Origin: an uncultured Lachnospiraceae bacterium
GTDB lineage: Bacteria > Bacillota > Clostridia > Lachnospirales > Lachnospiraceae
DNA: 64,000 bases
Direction of reading: 5' to 3'
NCBI GenBank assembly: GCA_946628415.1
Contig: CAMOWK010000001.1
Span: 1 to 64,000, forward strand
Every line of letters begins with the position of its first letter. The stretch's first letter is position 1. Shown piece after piece: positions 44,950 to 49,830 of this stretch. The position numbers and the translations under genes are program-made. Under the pieces are notes generated by a model. The model was not told the DNA's origin. It did no database searches and saw only the letters and a list, made by a program, of their open reading frames with translations.

Positions 44950-44992
44950 ACAATGTGCGTTTCATATACGCACATTGTACCACATTTGTCAA
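44950..44992 (-). promoter_or_regulatory. hisHF promoter overlapped by an 11-bp palindrome
   Basis: TTGACA (44987-44992) and TATATG (44963-44968) are spaced 18 bp on the minus strand. The -10 sits in the loop of a perfect inverted repeat ACAATGTGCGT/ACGCACATTGT (44950-44960 and 44968-44978). No U run follows, so an operator is at least as likely as a terminator. Confidence 0.45.
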
Positions 44993-46527
44993 TTTCTAGG
45001 AATCATAACCTTAAGTGTAAATGAAGTGCTGTCTGATTCTGCCCTGAGAAGTCCGTCATATTCTTCAACGGAATTTCTTATATTTCTAAGTCCAAATCCG
45101 TGATGCTCTTTATCACTCTTGGATGTATATCCGGAGGACATAAGAAGTTTCTCCACATCAACAATCCCGGAGGCGGCATTTGATATACTGATAACAAAAA
45201 ACTTTTCGGTTCTTTTTATCATCATTTTTATCCACGGAACGAAAGACCTGTTTTCACTTCCCTGTTCTGCAGCCCCTGTCATTTCATTAATATGCTGATC
45301 ATAGGCAGGTATAAGTTTTTTTGTAGCTTCTATCGCATTATCAAGAGCATTGGCAAAGATGCTGCATACATCCATCGGTTTCATATTAAGACCACCATCT
45401 ATGACACCATCAAGATTGAAGCTTATTCCAAGTTCCTTCATTCTGTCAGCCTTCATCGAAACTATACAGTCAAGCATTTCATCACCCGTAATTATAGAAG
45501 GAGAAAGTGCCTTGACATTCCCGAGAAGTTCTTTTAAATGACCGGATGCCTCATCCACTTTTCCTTCATCAATCATCATGCTCGTAAGCGACAGATTATT
45601 AATAATATCATGCCTGAATGCTCTTATCTCCGTCTGACTTCTTTTATACTGCTGAATATACTGAAGCTCCGCTTCAAGATAATTTGCCTGATATTCATTT
45701 TTTTCTTTTAATGATTTTTCTGCCGCAAGCATAACTATAAGTACAGGAGCAATTGCTCCAAGTACCGGAATCATAAGTCCCAAAGAAATACTCAGCATAT
45801 ATATTCTATCCGTCTCATTATTCCCGGAAAGAGCAAATGCCGGAAATGTATTAAAAATGAACAGCCAGATAATGAAAAGCACTCTGAATCTGACTTTTAC
45901 GATATATACCCTTTTCCTCTTATAATAGACAAAATACAGTATCGATAAAATAGCGGAAATCAGAATAAAATTAAATCCAAGAGTGAAACAGTTAAAATAT
46001 ACATTCTCTTCAGTATTAAGCAAAGAAATATTCAATAAATACTGCATATCTTTACGCATAATAAACAAATATGTGTACTGCGCTATGGTATTCATATAAT
46101 AATAAAGAAGAAGTAAACAAACTGTCCCCTCAATTGCACGTAAGAGTTTTTTCTCTTTAAACACGATCAGATAAAAAATAAATGCGTATAGGAATACAGA
46201 ACCGTTTAGAATATACGAAAGAACAAGACTGATATTCATGACAATACCATACTTGGGATCATTCTCTTTAATAGTATCCCCCAGATTAGTATCATCAAAA
46301 TAAGATACAAGTTCAGGCCATATTTTTTCTATAGCAAAAGAACTGATAAAAATAAACAAAATCTGAAGCACGATAATTCCGAGTGTAGCCAGTATCATTC
46401 TTCTCGAAATCACAACATATCTTCCCAGAAAACAGGCAGCAACAAGAACTACTACAAGCATGGAAAGCATGAATACCGCATCCGACAGAAATATGCTTAT
46501 AATATTCATCAGAGTTAATCTATCCAT
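44989..46527 (-). CDS. GHKL-type sensor histidine kinase (AgrC-like architecture)
   Basis: The 512-residue protein has six or seven hydrophobic segments in the first 270 residues, then a coiled coil and a kinase core with the phospho-acceptor His in AFRHDIINNLSL (about residue 310), the N box NALDNAIEATK and GFGLRNIRNSVEEYDG. This matches peptide-sensing AgrC/VirS-type kinases. No agrB or agrD is adjacent, so the signal is unknown. It follows the LytTR regulator by 36 bp and is its likely partner. Confidence 0.88.
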   Translation of the reverse strand: MDRLTLMNIISIFLSDAVFMLSMLVVVLVAACFLGRYVVISRRMILATLGIIVLQILFIFISSFAIEKIWPELVSYFDDTNLGDTIKENDPKYGIVMNISLVLSYILNGSVFLYAFIFYLIVFKEKKLLRAIEGTVCLLLLYYYMNTIAQYTYLFIMRKDMQYLLNISLLNTEENVYFNCFTLGFNFILISAILSILYFVYYKRKRVYIVKVRFRVLFIIWLFIFNTFPAFALSGNNETDRIYMLSISLGLMIPVLGAIAPVLIVMLAAEKSLKEKNEYQANYLEAELQYIQQYKRSQTEIRAFRHDIINNLSLTSMMIDEGKVDEASGHLKELLGNVKALSPSIITGDEMLDCIVSMKADRMKELGISFNLDGVIDGGLNMKPMDVCSIFANALDNAIEATKKLIPAYDQHINEMTGAAEQGSENRSFVPWIKMMIKRTEKFFVISISNAASGIVDVEKLLMSSGYTSKSDKEHHGFGLRNIRNSVEEYDGLLRAESDSTSFTLKVMIPRN

Positions 46528-46563
46528 AAAACATCACCACAATAAAATTCTAAATCAGTTATT

Positions 46564-47274
46564 TTAGAAGGCAGTATTCTCAACATAAGTATAAAGTGCA
46601 TCTTTAAGCGCTTTAAGATTCGATCTGCTTACAGGGAGACTTACTTCACTACGGGACATATCCATGATTACTTCATTCTTAACGAGTTTTTTAACTTTCC
46701 CAAGCGAAACGAGATACCCTCTGTGGATTCTGAAAAAACCGTCATTTTTCAGTTTTTCTTCAAAATCCCCGATATTATATCTGACAAGGTGCTCTTCCCC
46801 GGAAGAATAAATCATTACATACTGATTCTGCGCCTCAAAGTAAACTATATCAGAAATATTAAGCAGAAGTTCTTCACCGTCTTCCCTTATCATAAGCTGT
46901 CTTTTACTTACATTTTTATCCATCACAAATCGAAGTACTTCTCTTAACTTATCTTCCTTAACAGGCTTAGTAAGATATCTGATTGCATTTACCTCATAAC
47001 CCTGAAGAGCATATTCCACATGCCCGGTCAAAAATACTATATATATATCCTCACTTCGTGCACGAAGCTTTTTTGCAAGAGTAATACCATCCATAGCCGG
47101 CATTTCTATATCAAGAAAAAGTACGTCATATGGTTTTTTATCAAAAGCCGCGATAAGATCATTTCCATCCGAAAATGCATCTACTACAACATCAAGACTT
47201 CCTGCAAGTTTATCTATAAGATTTCTCTCATCTATTCTAAACTTTTCCTCATCATCACATACAGCAATCCTCAT
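46564..47274 (-). CDS. LytTR-family response regulator
   Basis: The 236-residue protein has a receiver domain (IAVCDDEEKFRID, phosphorylated Asp55 in VLFLDIEMPAMDG, Thr near VFLTGHVEYALQGYEVNAIRYLTKP) and a C-terminal LytTR DNA-binding domain (DIVYFEAQNQYVMIYSSGEEHLVRYNIGDFEE, then FFRIHRGYLV). AgrA-type regulators bind paired direct repeats. It is transcribed before the GHKL kinase gene. Confidence 0.93.
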   Translation of the reverse strand: MRIAVCDDEEKFRIDERNLIDKLAGSLDVVVDAFSDGNDLIAAFDKKPYDVLFLDIEMPAMDGITLAKKLRARSEDIYIVFLTGHVEYALQGYEVNAIRYLTKPVKEDKLREVLRFVMDKNVSKRQLMIREDGEELLLNISDIVYFEAQNQYVMIYSSGEEHLVRYNIGDFEEKLKNDGFFRIHRGYLVSLGKVKKLVKNEVIMDMSRSEVSLPVSRSNLKALKDALYTYVENTAF

Positions 47275-47320
47275 ATGTCTACCCTTCCCCGATTAATAAA
47301 ACTCAACATTCAAACATTTA

Positions 47321-47357
47321 AACGTGCCAGTTTAAGATTTATTTAAACTGACACGTT
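47321..47357. terminator. Strong inverted repeat between CPBP protease and LytTR regulator
   Basis: AACGTGCCAGTTTAA and TTAAACTGACACGTT form a 15-bp stem with one mismatch and a short loop. It lies about 20 bp past the CPBP stop; U runs are poor, so a weak terminator or regulator site are both possible. Confidence 0.5.
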
Positions 47358-47376
47358 CATTATTATATATTTTGTA

Positions 47377-48234
47377 TTAAACTGTTGCAACTTTTACTTC
47401 AGCTGTCTCACGGCTTTTTCTAAATGCAAATACCATGATAAGTATTATAGCAGGTACAGCTGCAAAGAGTGCTATATTAAATACTCCCTCAGTTGCATAA
47501 GCAGAAAGCTTTGTGCAGTTAACAAGTGTTGAAGTACCGTTAAGGAACATATGAGCTACGACTCCCGGAAGAATCGAGCCTGTTTTATGATAGATAAATG
47601 CAAGGAAAAGTCCTACAACTGTTGCGTAGCATACCCAAACTATCTGACCATGCATAAGTCCGAATATTACTGACGAAAGGAGCATTGCAAGCCCTACCGG
47701 CATAGCCTTTTTAAATCTGTCAAAAAGAAGTCCTCTGAATATGATTTCTTCTATAACAGGTGCTGCTATAACATTTCCTATGATCGCAAGTATTACACTC
47801 TGTGAAAAAAGCCCGTTTGCTGACTCAGCATATGAGTTCAACATGTTCTCTGATAAAGGCAAATGCATAAGAACACCAACAACCAGAATATACATTGCTG
47901 TACCGATCCCCGCTCCTGCAAGTATGTGTTTTGCTGATGCAGGTTTTAAGTTTATCTTTTCGGACATTTTTTCATGTCTTGCTTTATAGATTATCGCAAG
48001 AGTAAGAATTGCAAGAACCGCAGATACTATAACCATAATTCCCATGTTGTTCTGTATAAGCCCCATGGTACTTTCCATTATCTTGCCGGAATCTGTTACT
48101 CCATCTCTTGCAGCTTTATATCCTGCATAAATTCCAAATCCCATACTGGATATAAACGAACCTGCCAGCTGACTGGCAAAGTAAATACCAAAATATCCAA
48201 GTCCTCTTCCTATGTTTTTAAATCTTTCTTTCAT
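47377..48234 (-). CDS. CPBP family intramembrane metalloprotease
   Basis: The 285-residue protein has about seven or eight transmembrane segments. The Abi/CPBP motifs are clear: APVIEEIIFRGLLFDRF with the paired Glu and Arg, FGLMHGQIVW, and HMFLNGTS. Family members process prenylated proteins or peptides in the membrane, and some act in bacteriocin immunity. It precedes the LytTR/GHKL pair on the same strand but is separated by a strong inverted repeat. Confidence 0.9.
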   Translation of the reverse strand: MKERFKNIGRGLGYFGIYFASQLAGSFISSMGFGIYAGYKAARDGVTDSGKIMESTMGLIQNNMGIMVIVSAVLAILTLAIIYKARHEKMSEKINLKPASAKHILAGAGIGTAMYILVVGVLMHLPLSENMLNSYAESANGLFSQSVILAIIGNVIAAPVIEEIIFRGLLFDRFKKAMPVGLAMLLSSVIFGLMHGQIVWVCYATVVGLFLAFIYHKTGSILPGVVAHMFLNGTSTLVNCTKLSAYATEGVFNIALFAAVPAIILIMVFAFRKSRETAEVKVATV

Positions 48235-48444
48235 TTCCTTTTACCTCCCGATTATCTTTTATTTCTTAAGAAGATTTTCTTTCTTGCTTCGATGTTTGGA
48301 TAATACTCCGAAAGGTAATTCATTTATTTTTTTTCGTTGTGAATGGTAAAAACTTTGTCGTAAACTGCATATAAAATCAAGAAGCCCACCCTTCGTATGA
48401 AGGATGGACTTCTCTTAAGAGGTTAAAAAGTTTAATAAAAGATC
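48235..48444. other. Gap between pseudopilin and CPBP genes
   Basis: About 210 bp containing the pseudopilin terminator and the CPBP leader. I looked for a short peptide gene (AgrD-like) on both strands and saw none with a ribosome binding site. Confidence 0.5.
48380..48414 (-). terminator. Terminator of the pseudopilin gene
   Basis: Minus-strand AGAAGTCCATCCTTC pairs with GAAGGGTGGGCTTCT (some G-U) around a 4-nt loop, followed by a U-rich but interrupted tract. It lies 30 bp past the stop. Confidence 0.65.
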
Positions 48445-49518
48445 TCAATTTCCATTATAGACGAATCTCTCGTCCGGTTCAGGATAAACTCTGTACATAG
48501 GATTATTTGCCCACTTTGTACCATGATTACCAACCCAAACTTCAAGTCGGTTATCAGATGCTCTTCTGCAAACGAACCATCTGTATACTTCTGTATCCTT
48601 TGTTGTAATCGGAACCATGTTCATTCCATTCTCTTTATTATTTTTGTACTCGCCTTCTTTCATACCAAGTTCTTCATTAAAGGCCGTTCTGAACTGAACA
48701 TGTCCTGTATATTCATTACCATTTGTAATAAACTGTCCTTTTTCAACATCATGCCAGCCCTGAGCTCCGTTAGTTCTGGCAAGTGTATACATATCATAAG
48801 GAACATTAAAAGCTTTATCCGAAGTCTTAAGCGGTGTATTCTGTCCACTGTTTAAGAATGCCTTTTTAGCCATCTCATCACTTTCGATAACCTTTTTAGC
48901 TGCCTCATATATTCTTATACCTGTAGCAAGATCAGTAGCCTGCTTAACTTCCCAAGGAAGGCTTTCTATCTCTTCTTTGCTCATACCCATAAGTTCAACA
49001 TATGTGTAAGCTTTTGGTACTGTAGGTTCTGCAGCTTCGCTGCTACCATTTGCTCCGCCTGTTTCTACACTTCCGTCAGCATAAAATGTTCCATCGCCGA
49101 TAGTTGATGTAGGAACTCCGTCAAGCCCTGCAAGCCAAACTGATACGTTTCTGTTCTCAGGTGCTATATACATATAAATAGCTTCTGCTTCTTTAGCAGC
49201 CTTTGACTTAAATATCTTTGAAAGACTAAGATCAAAATTGATTCCTGTATAAGTAGAAATCTCTGTCTTAAGAGAATCATCGATTGCAGCCATATTGAGA
49301 GCCTTACCCATAGGTATCTCATCATCTTCTTTATCCTGTATAGCTACAAGAACTCCAAGTCTTATGGTTGCAAGCTTCTGCTCATCAACAGATGTTCTTG
49401 ATTTTTCATAATGTCTGATAAGTACCGGTGAAACAACCGCCGCCAGTATAATCAGGATAGCTATAACAATAACTAATTCAACTAATGTGTAACCACTGTT
49501 CTTTGTAATTCTTCTCAT
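48445..49518 (-). CDS. Type IV pilin-like (pseudopilin) protein
   Basis: The 357-residue product begins with a class-III signal: short basic leader MRRITKNSG, cleavage before Tyr, then YTLVELVIVIAILIILAAVV with the conserved Glu at mature position 5. The long polar remainder (about 320 residues) has no recognised domain and no second helix; it is much larger than a typical major pilin (150-200 residues), so it may be a minor pilin, tip adhesin or pseudopilin. The ATG at 49518 has AAAGGAG eight bases upstream; a GTG at 49527 lies inside that site. No other pilus genes are adjacent. Its leader is a c-di-GMP-I riboswitch. Confidence 0.85.
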   Translation of the reverse strand: MRRITKNSGYTLVELVIVIAILIILAAVVSPVLIRHYEKSRTSVDEQKLATIRLGVLVAIQDKEDDEIPMGKALNMAAIDDSLKTEISTYTGINFDLSLSKIFKSKAAKEAEAIYMYIAPENRNVSVWLAGLDGVPTSTIGDGTFYADGSVETGGANGSSEAAEPTVPKAYTYVELMGMSKEEIESLPWEVKQATDLATGIRIYEAAKKVIESDEMAKKAFLNSGQNTPLKTSDKAFNVPYDMYTLARTNGAQGWHDVEKGQFITNGNEYTGHVQFRTAFNEELGMKEGEYKNNKENGMNMVPITTKDTEVYRWFVCRRASDNRLEVWVGNHGTKWANNPMYRVYPEPDERFVYNGN

Positions 49519-49642
49519 AAGAATCACTCCTTTCTTTTATTAAACTTATAAACATTTAAGCGGCCCTCTTAAAACCGCTATGAACAGCTGCTCTGTTCAT
49601 CTATATGGGAAGCTGTAACCTCTTCAGCTTCTAAAATGTAAT

Positions 49643-49678
49643 AAAAAAGCATTGCTAAAATAGAAATTTAGCAATGCT
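49643..49678 (-). terminator. Riboswitch expression-platform terminator
   Basis: A perfect 12-bp stem AGCATTGCTAAA/TTTAGCAATGCT with a 7-nt loop and six U on the minus strand lies about 20 nt after the aptamer and 125 nt before the start codon. It is a premature terminator in the leader rather than the end of a gene. Confidence 0.92.
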
Positions 49679-49699
49679 GATAAATCATAAATAATGGAA

Positions 49700-49785
49700 A
49701 TAACTCATTCCGGAGGCAACTGGCTGCCATTTTACAGGCCCTATAGCTTTGCGTCATTGACTTTCATCAACTTTGCTAAATATTT
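49700..49785 (-). ncRNA. Cyclic di-GMP-I riboswitch (GEMM-I)
   Basis: Minus-strand RNA shows the GEMM-I core in order: GCAAAGTTG, a GAAA-tetraloop hairpin (TTGATGAAAGTCAA), the near-invariant GACGCAAAGC, the second helix with CTATAGGGCC, and ATGGCAGCCAGTTGCC closing P1. These are the conserved elements of c-di-GMP-I aptamers. It is followed by a terminator and controls the pseudopilin gene. Confidence 0.92.
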
Positions 49786-49802
49786 AGTTCGCTTATATGT
49801 AT

Positions 49803-49830
49803 ATATTATCACTTATCTTAATAATGTCAA
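49803..49830 (-). promoter_or_regulatory. Promoter of the riboswitch-pseudopilin transcript
   Basis: Perfect TTGACA (49825-49830), 16-bp spacer and an extended -10 (TGA-TAATAT, 49803-49808) on the minus strand. Transcription would begin just upstream of the aptamer. Confidence 0.75.

Follow-up and report, generated by a model that had tools for sequence, protein, structure and literature searches.

A Predicted OFF-Type Class I c-di-GMP Riboswitch Ahead of a Candidate Tandem-Head Type IV Pilin Gene in a Lachnospiraceae Genus

Class I c-di-GMP riboswitches are known, as are pili under riboswitch control. In C. difficile, the Cd1 riboswitch of the flgB operon, which controls flagella, combines a GEMM-I aptamer with a separate terminator and follows OFF logic (PMC9262584, PMC11477304), and the class I switches of this organism are OFF switches (PMC11477304). 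The type IV pilus genes of the same clostridium are under c-di-GMP control by a different aptamer class, a class II riboswitch that acts as an ON switch for the whole pilus cluster (PMC11477304). In Geobacter, the GEMM-Ib element of pilM shares the GEMM-I fold and has a pilus-related target; it is an ON switch in which the aptamer and the terminator have strands in common (PMC9262584).

The locus described here lies within a 64,000-nucleotide stretch of DNA from an uncultured Lachnospiraceae bacterium (assembly GCA_946628415.1, contig CAMOWK010000001.1, positions 1 to 64,000), hereafter the window, and resembles each of these systems in part. Like Cd1, it combines a GEMM-I aptamer with a separate terminator and predicted OFF logic; however, its target is a pilin, and the predicted antiterminator uses the 5′ half of the aptamer, including the ligand-binding core, whereas that of Cd1 uses the aptamer 3′ end. 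Relative to the C. difficile pilus switch, it belongs to class I, is predicted to be OFF, and stands ahead of one pilin gene distant from the pilus cluster. It differs from the Geobacter element at the base of P2, where it has G-C instead of U-G (PMC9262584). We propose, with a probability of roughly 0.7, that this riboswitch is a transcriptional OFF switch for a single tandem-head type IV pilin, so that c-di-GMP probably lowers rather than raises pilin expression. The aptamer class, the terminator-type control, and the pilin target are ordinary parts. Less ordinary are the predicted use of the ligand-binding core as an antiterminator strand, the candidate two-headed pilin, and the genus-wide, predicted OFF-type control of pilins by class I switches, which recur in this gut and rumen genus ahead of pilins with a common head type and have a predicted sign opposite to that of the C. 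difficile pilus operon.

The features of the locus are collected in Table 1. The Rfam covariance search, which the first-pass annotation had proposed as a check on its claim of a complete GEMM-I aptamer, matches the full model (positions 1 to 87, E=7.7e-8) well above the gathering score of 35 bits, and the match is the only GEMM-I copy in the 2.26-Mb genome. In the aptamer alignments, A47 and C92 of the ligand pocket (numbered according to PMC11218506) and the GNRA tetraloop of P2 are present as GACGCAAA, GTTGCC, and GAAA. The terminator and consensus promoter claimed upstream of the gene were likewise located. A sigma-70 scan returned 13 promoter-like sites where 8.8 were expected, and the promoter by itself therefore counts for little; two orthologous loci carry TTGACA-16-(TATAAT/TAATAT) at the matching position. 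The arrangement of a riboswitch and a single pilin gene is confirmed: the encoded protein matches PF07963 (N_methyl, 25.7 bits against a cut-off of 21.2), and its neighbors are not pilus genes. With a terminator-like hairpin behind it and no pilus gene adjacent, the transcription unit looks monocistronic.

Table 1. Features of the riboswitch-pilin locus, in window coordinates
Feature	Positions	Strand	Evidence or remark
Promoter TTGACA-16-TAATAT, extended -10 TG	49803..49830	-	Promoter scan; similar layout in two orthologues
c-di-GMP-I (GEMM-I) aptamer	49712..49787	-	RF01051, 54.3 bits; 71/71 bases invariant in three orthologues
Predicted antiterminator 5′ strand in aptamer, AUUUAGCAA-A-GUUGAUGA (A20-A25 core plus P2 5′ strand)	49764..49781	-	Folding; duplex -20.8 kcal/mol
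Small linker hairpin GGAAUGAGUUAUUUCC	49696..49711	-	Folding; L211 orthologue keeps the hairpin with different bases
Predicted antiterminator 3′ strand, UUAUC plus terminator 5′ arm AGCAUUGCUAAA plus U	49666..49683	-	Block invariant in three orthologues
Intrinsic terminator, 12-bp stem plus U tract (TTTTTT)	49642..49678 (stem 49678-49648)	-	Terminator scan; hairpin about -15 kcal/mol
Three short leader hairpins between terminator and ribosome-binding site	49609-49631, 49581-49599, 49560-49578	-	Folding, z -2.8
Ribosome-binding site AAGGAG	49527..49532	-	Sequence; block 26/27 invariant in orthologues
Candidate tandem-head prepilin gene, 357 aa	ATG 49518 to stop 48445	-	Class III leader MRRITKNSG|YTLVE
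Head A, residues ~30-150	49069..49431	-	31-33% identity to 168-171-aa pilins
Head B, residues 186-357	48448..48963	-	Homology to entire heads of GEMM-I-controlled pilins, alpha1-C helix included
Terminator-like hairpin 3′ of pilin gene	48379..48414	-	Terminator scan

Full-length orthologues of the protein (58 to 59% identity) were recovered from two genomes of the genus (G399 and G412), Lachnospiraceae bacterium YSB2008 (JHWR01000011.1) and Eubacterium sp. RGIG4867 from roe deer rumen (JAFUVQ010000028.1), with a riboswitch about 200 nt upstream of the gene in both. In both orthologous loci, hisH and then hisF directly follow the pilin gene. In the window, genes for a LytTR response regulator, a GHKL sensor kinase, and a CPBP (Rce1-like) protease (44989-48234(-)) lie between the pilin gene and hisH, an arrangement seen in the window only among the three loci. 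A sensor kinase and a response regulator also lie upstream of the pilin gene in YSB2008, as in the window, and the contig extends further there. The leader 3′ of the terminator gave nothing credible, and no Rfam family, at a permissive threshold. Two of its three hairpins (49560-49631(-)) have AAGAGG-type loops, and the orthologous leaders place hairpins in the matching position with unrelated stems and similar GAGG sequences; these hairpins are possibly mRNA stabilizers or a protein-binding site.

The predicted direction of the switch derives from the pairing of its parts. The sequence TTATCAGCATTGCTAAA spans the terminator 5′ arm together with the bases that immediately precede it. It is fully conserved among the three orthologues while the linker and loop vary, and has about 17 bp of complementarity to AUUUAGCAA-A-GUUGAUGA, that is, to the A20-A25 ligand-binding core and the 5′ strand of P2; the leader segment that pairs with the aptamer in the predicted antiterminator is UUAUCAGCAUUGCUAAA. 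Across the three genomes, invariant positions number 71/71 in the aptamer, 15/29 in the linker, 3/6 in the terminator loop, and 19/103 in the leader 3′ of the terminator. For a transcript that ends with the 5′ arm, the antiterminator is the minimum-energy fold in 3/3 orthologues. With the complete terminator, the two states are nearly balanced in the window (-35.0 kcal/mol for the antiterminator, -34.8 for aptamer plus terminator), and the antiterminator is preferred by about 4.6 kcal/mol in the two orthologues with ligand energy not counted, such nearest-neighbor energies leaving out tertiary contacts, ligand, and kinetics. A cross-pairing control covered the 108 loci with a usable terminator and matched every terminator arm with every aptamer in the set. 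The pairing of the window arm with the 5′ half of its own aptamer stands at z -3.64 against noncognate aptamers, and about 2% of the other loci equal it, that is, two loci, the number expected for the two orthologues. Because the three aptamers are identical, covariation is absent within the orthologue group and comes from other loci: other pilin switches of the genus, L249, L252, L109, and L171, share the geometry but not the bases. Their arm is the complement of UAGGCAAAGC, and the pair at position 20 is G-C where the window has A-U, an exchange that is covariation across loci.

The terminator begins about 34 nt 3′ of the aptamer without overlapping it, so that a ligand-bound aptamer is compatible with termination; hence the prediction of an OFF switch. 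We propose that, in the ligand-free state, the 5′ arm of the nascent terminator, along with the bases preceding it, would pair with the 5′ half of the aptamer to form the antiterminator, and RNA polymerase would read through into the pilin gene. Bound c-di-GMP would hold the 5′ half within the aptamer and free the arm, and the terminator would then form and no pilin would be made. The reverse sign, with c-di-GMP raising pilin expression, has precedents in the class II ON switch of the C. difficile type IV pilus operon (PMC11477304) and in Geobacter pilM, a known ON switch of the GEMM-I type (PMC9262584). We nevertheless regard it as improbable: the Geobacter terminator uses aptamer strands, whereas that of the window is separate, and the competing antiterminator of the window dismantles the ligand-binding core. 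Moreover, none of the 28 pilin-linked switches falls in the overlapping, ON-type class (no terminator was found for 9, and 5 could not be classed clearly).

These pilin-linked switches come from a survey of the genus, in which GEMM-I is present in 53 of 61 genomes. We read downstream of 177 distinct aptamers, mostly from the genus, with a simple rule for the first prepilin-type gene, and such a gene came first behind 28 of them. Conversely, 32 pilins have an aptamer at most 700 nt upstream, and they are found in 28/61 genomes of the genus and in two genomes of another genus. Placement of GEMM-I before pilins is hence a recurrent regulon of the genus and not an oddity. The first-pass annotation had called such a target unusual; its reading is partly supported, the locus being less isolated than it first appeared, and the predicted OFF direction, the A at the specificity base, and the tandem arrangement of two candidate pilin heads were absent from it. 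An antiterminator formed from the 5′ half of the aptamer was predicted for 9/14 pilin-linked switches against 8/78 others (Fisher p 4e-5, a value that is too small because related loci were counted separately).

The 357-residue protein has the N terminus of a type IV pilin, with a class III signal peptide, N-methylation motif, and hydrophobic alpha1, and no other significant domain. The gene for one relative of head A, at L263, is flanked by those for PilC and a prepilin peptidase. The C-terminal part had no significant relative in Pfam, NCBIfam, or PDB sequence searches; nevertheless, a profile of it matches the ends of 220- to 300-aa open frames, many of them GEMM-linked pilins, in a further 16 genomes of the genus. 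On realignment, residues 186 to 357 match 19 pilins from the alpha1-C helix (RKAxDxxTAxxIYxAAELA) through the shared C-terminal end (ECWxVYRRxD..PEVWIGYK..PLYRIYPDPCxEYK). The head B profile is found in 20/32 GEMM-linked pilins versus 7/48 others (Fisher p 2e-5, related sequences included), and each of the seven nonlinked matches comes from a stretch with a GEMM-I aptamer. By this profile, the head B class is found mostly in GEMM-I-controlled cassettes, and the most fitting reading of the window protein is a tandem-head pilin with a second head of the GEMM-controlled class.

The proposed two-headed architecture has a precedent in C. difficile PilJ, a single subunit with two pilin domains of which the second projects out of the pilus (PMC9556784); PilJ is a solved structure, whereas the window protein is known by sequence and had no PilJ match in the PDB sequence search. 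The modular pilin PilB of S. sanguinis also has an extra module grafted behind its pilin module (PMC8179133), but that module is a nonpilin vWA domain and that of the window protein a putative second pilin head. An AlphaFold2 model of head B from 22 sequences (pLDDT 74, pTM 0.78) has the helix-then-sheet order and had no significant match in a PDB fold search; a full-length model from three sequences was discarded (pLDDT 43). The pilin fold of head B therefore rests on homology. An hhalign comparison of head A with head B gave no support for an internal duplication (probability 2%), and head B is placed instead by its homology to other pilins. If the riboswitch were real but the protein a secretion-type pseudopilin or a membrane-tethered surface protein instead of a pilus subunit, it would be no surprise that the N-terminal motif is its sole known family and that full-length orthologues are few (2 found). 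This too we consider improbable, given that head A is akin to the pilin at L263, whose gene neighbors are those for PilC and a prepilin peptidase, that head B is related to pilins of GEMM-I cassettes, and that the genome has a complete PilB/PilT/PilC/PilM/N cluster.

A type IV pilin would find its machinery in this genome. The search for pilus genes and diguanylate cyclases, also suggested at first pass, recovered a type IV pilus cluster, a prepilin peptidase, and GGDEF and EAL domains. The cluster (contig 1, ~189-203 kb) encodes PilB, PilT, PilC, a 144-aa pilin, a PilM/PilN fusion, a PilO-like protein, and minor pilins, and lies about 140 to 150 kb from the riboswitch; the prepilin peptidase gene is on contig 15. 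The pilin of our preferred reading would be processed by this peptidase and join the pili of the cluster, with head A packing in the filament and head B displayed; it may be an adhesin or pilus tip protein, as the first-pass annotation suggested. PilB (L242:15547-17331(-), contig 1 ~201.5-203.3 kb) has an MshEN domain (56.9 bits), in which one RxGxxLxxxGxI...Q motif was matched, with a second recognizable 28 residues further along. As these motifs are of the c-di-GMP-binding type, c-di-GMP may also act directly on pilus extension. One possibility, which we offer tentatively and think somewhat unlikely, is that the c-di-GMP-I switches of the genus control pilus composition: high c-di-GMP would stop the synthesis of head-B-class pilins and stimulate the MshEN extension ATPase, and at low c-di-GMP these pilins, alone or grafted on a second pilin, would be made and decorate the pilus. 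If so, one signal would alter both the amount of pilus and the head displayed.

In Geobacter, the GEMM-Ib riboswitches that sense cGAMP carry A at the specificity position. The window aptamer also has A (49777) at the position of Vc2 G20 in the Rfam alignment, as do both orthologues. G at this position is typical of RF01051 but not defining, because 33 of the 177 aptamers examined have A20, and the genus contains these side by side with G20 aptamers. In Cd1, the equivalent G-to-A mutation was without large effect (PMC9262584). On the enzyme side, the Hypr GGDEF signature is Ser where the usual domains have Asp (PMC6456294). Geobacter has such enzymes, whereas the window genome, which is 97% complete and encodes nine EAL domains, had no Hypr cyclase among its 11 GGDEF domains with an intact GG[DE]E[FY] motif, all of which have Asp, and no SMODS cyclase. 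With no Hypr or SMODS enzyme, A20 beside G20 in the genus, and the mild Cd1 mutation, c-di-GMP is the likely ligand. Sensing of 3′,3′-cGAMP, or of both dinucleotides, would accord with A20 in all three orthologues and with the precedent of cGAMP riboswitches first annotated as c-di-GMP riboswitches (PMC9262584), but in view of the enzyme survey and of the occurrence of A20 beside G20 we hold it to be very unlikely. The locus allows direct tests of the ligand of A20 aptamers outside Geobacter, and of c-di-GMP changing the pilus subunits displayed.

Other genes also recur behind GEMM-I. At 18 loci, the first gene encodes an approximately 70-aa helix-turn-helix-like family (MEGYxTIxEVAExWxLTxRRVQKMCSDGxIPG...; L039, L049, L055, L060, L078, L141, L147, L148, L155, L159, L174, L195, L196, L201, L209, L222, L232, and L241). 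Another recurrent target is a set of 70- to 135-aa proteins starting M[YF]DEMDID (L179, L185, L190, L192, and L201). At L012 and L014, from another genus of the family (G015 and G340), GEMM-I is followed by a different long prepilin-like protein of >380-440 aa.
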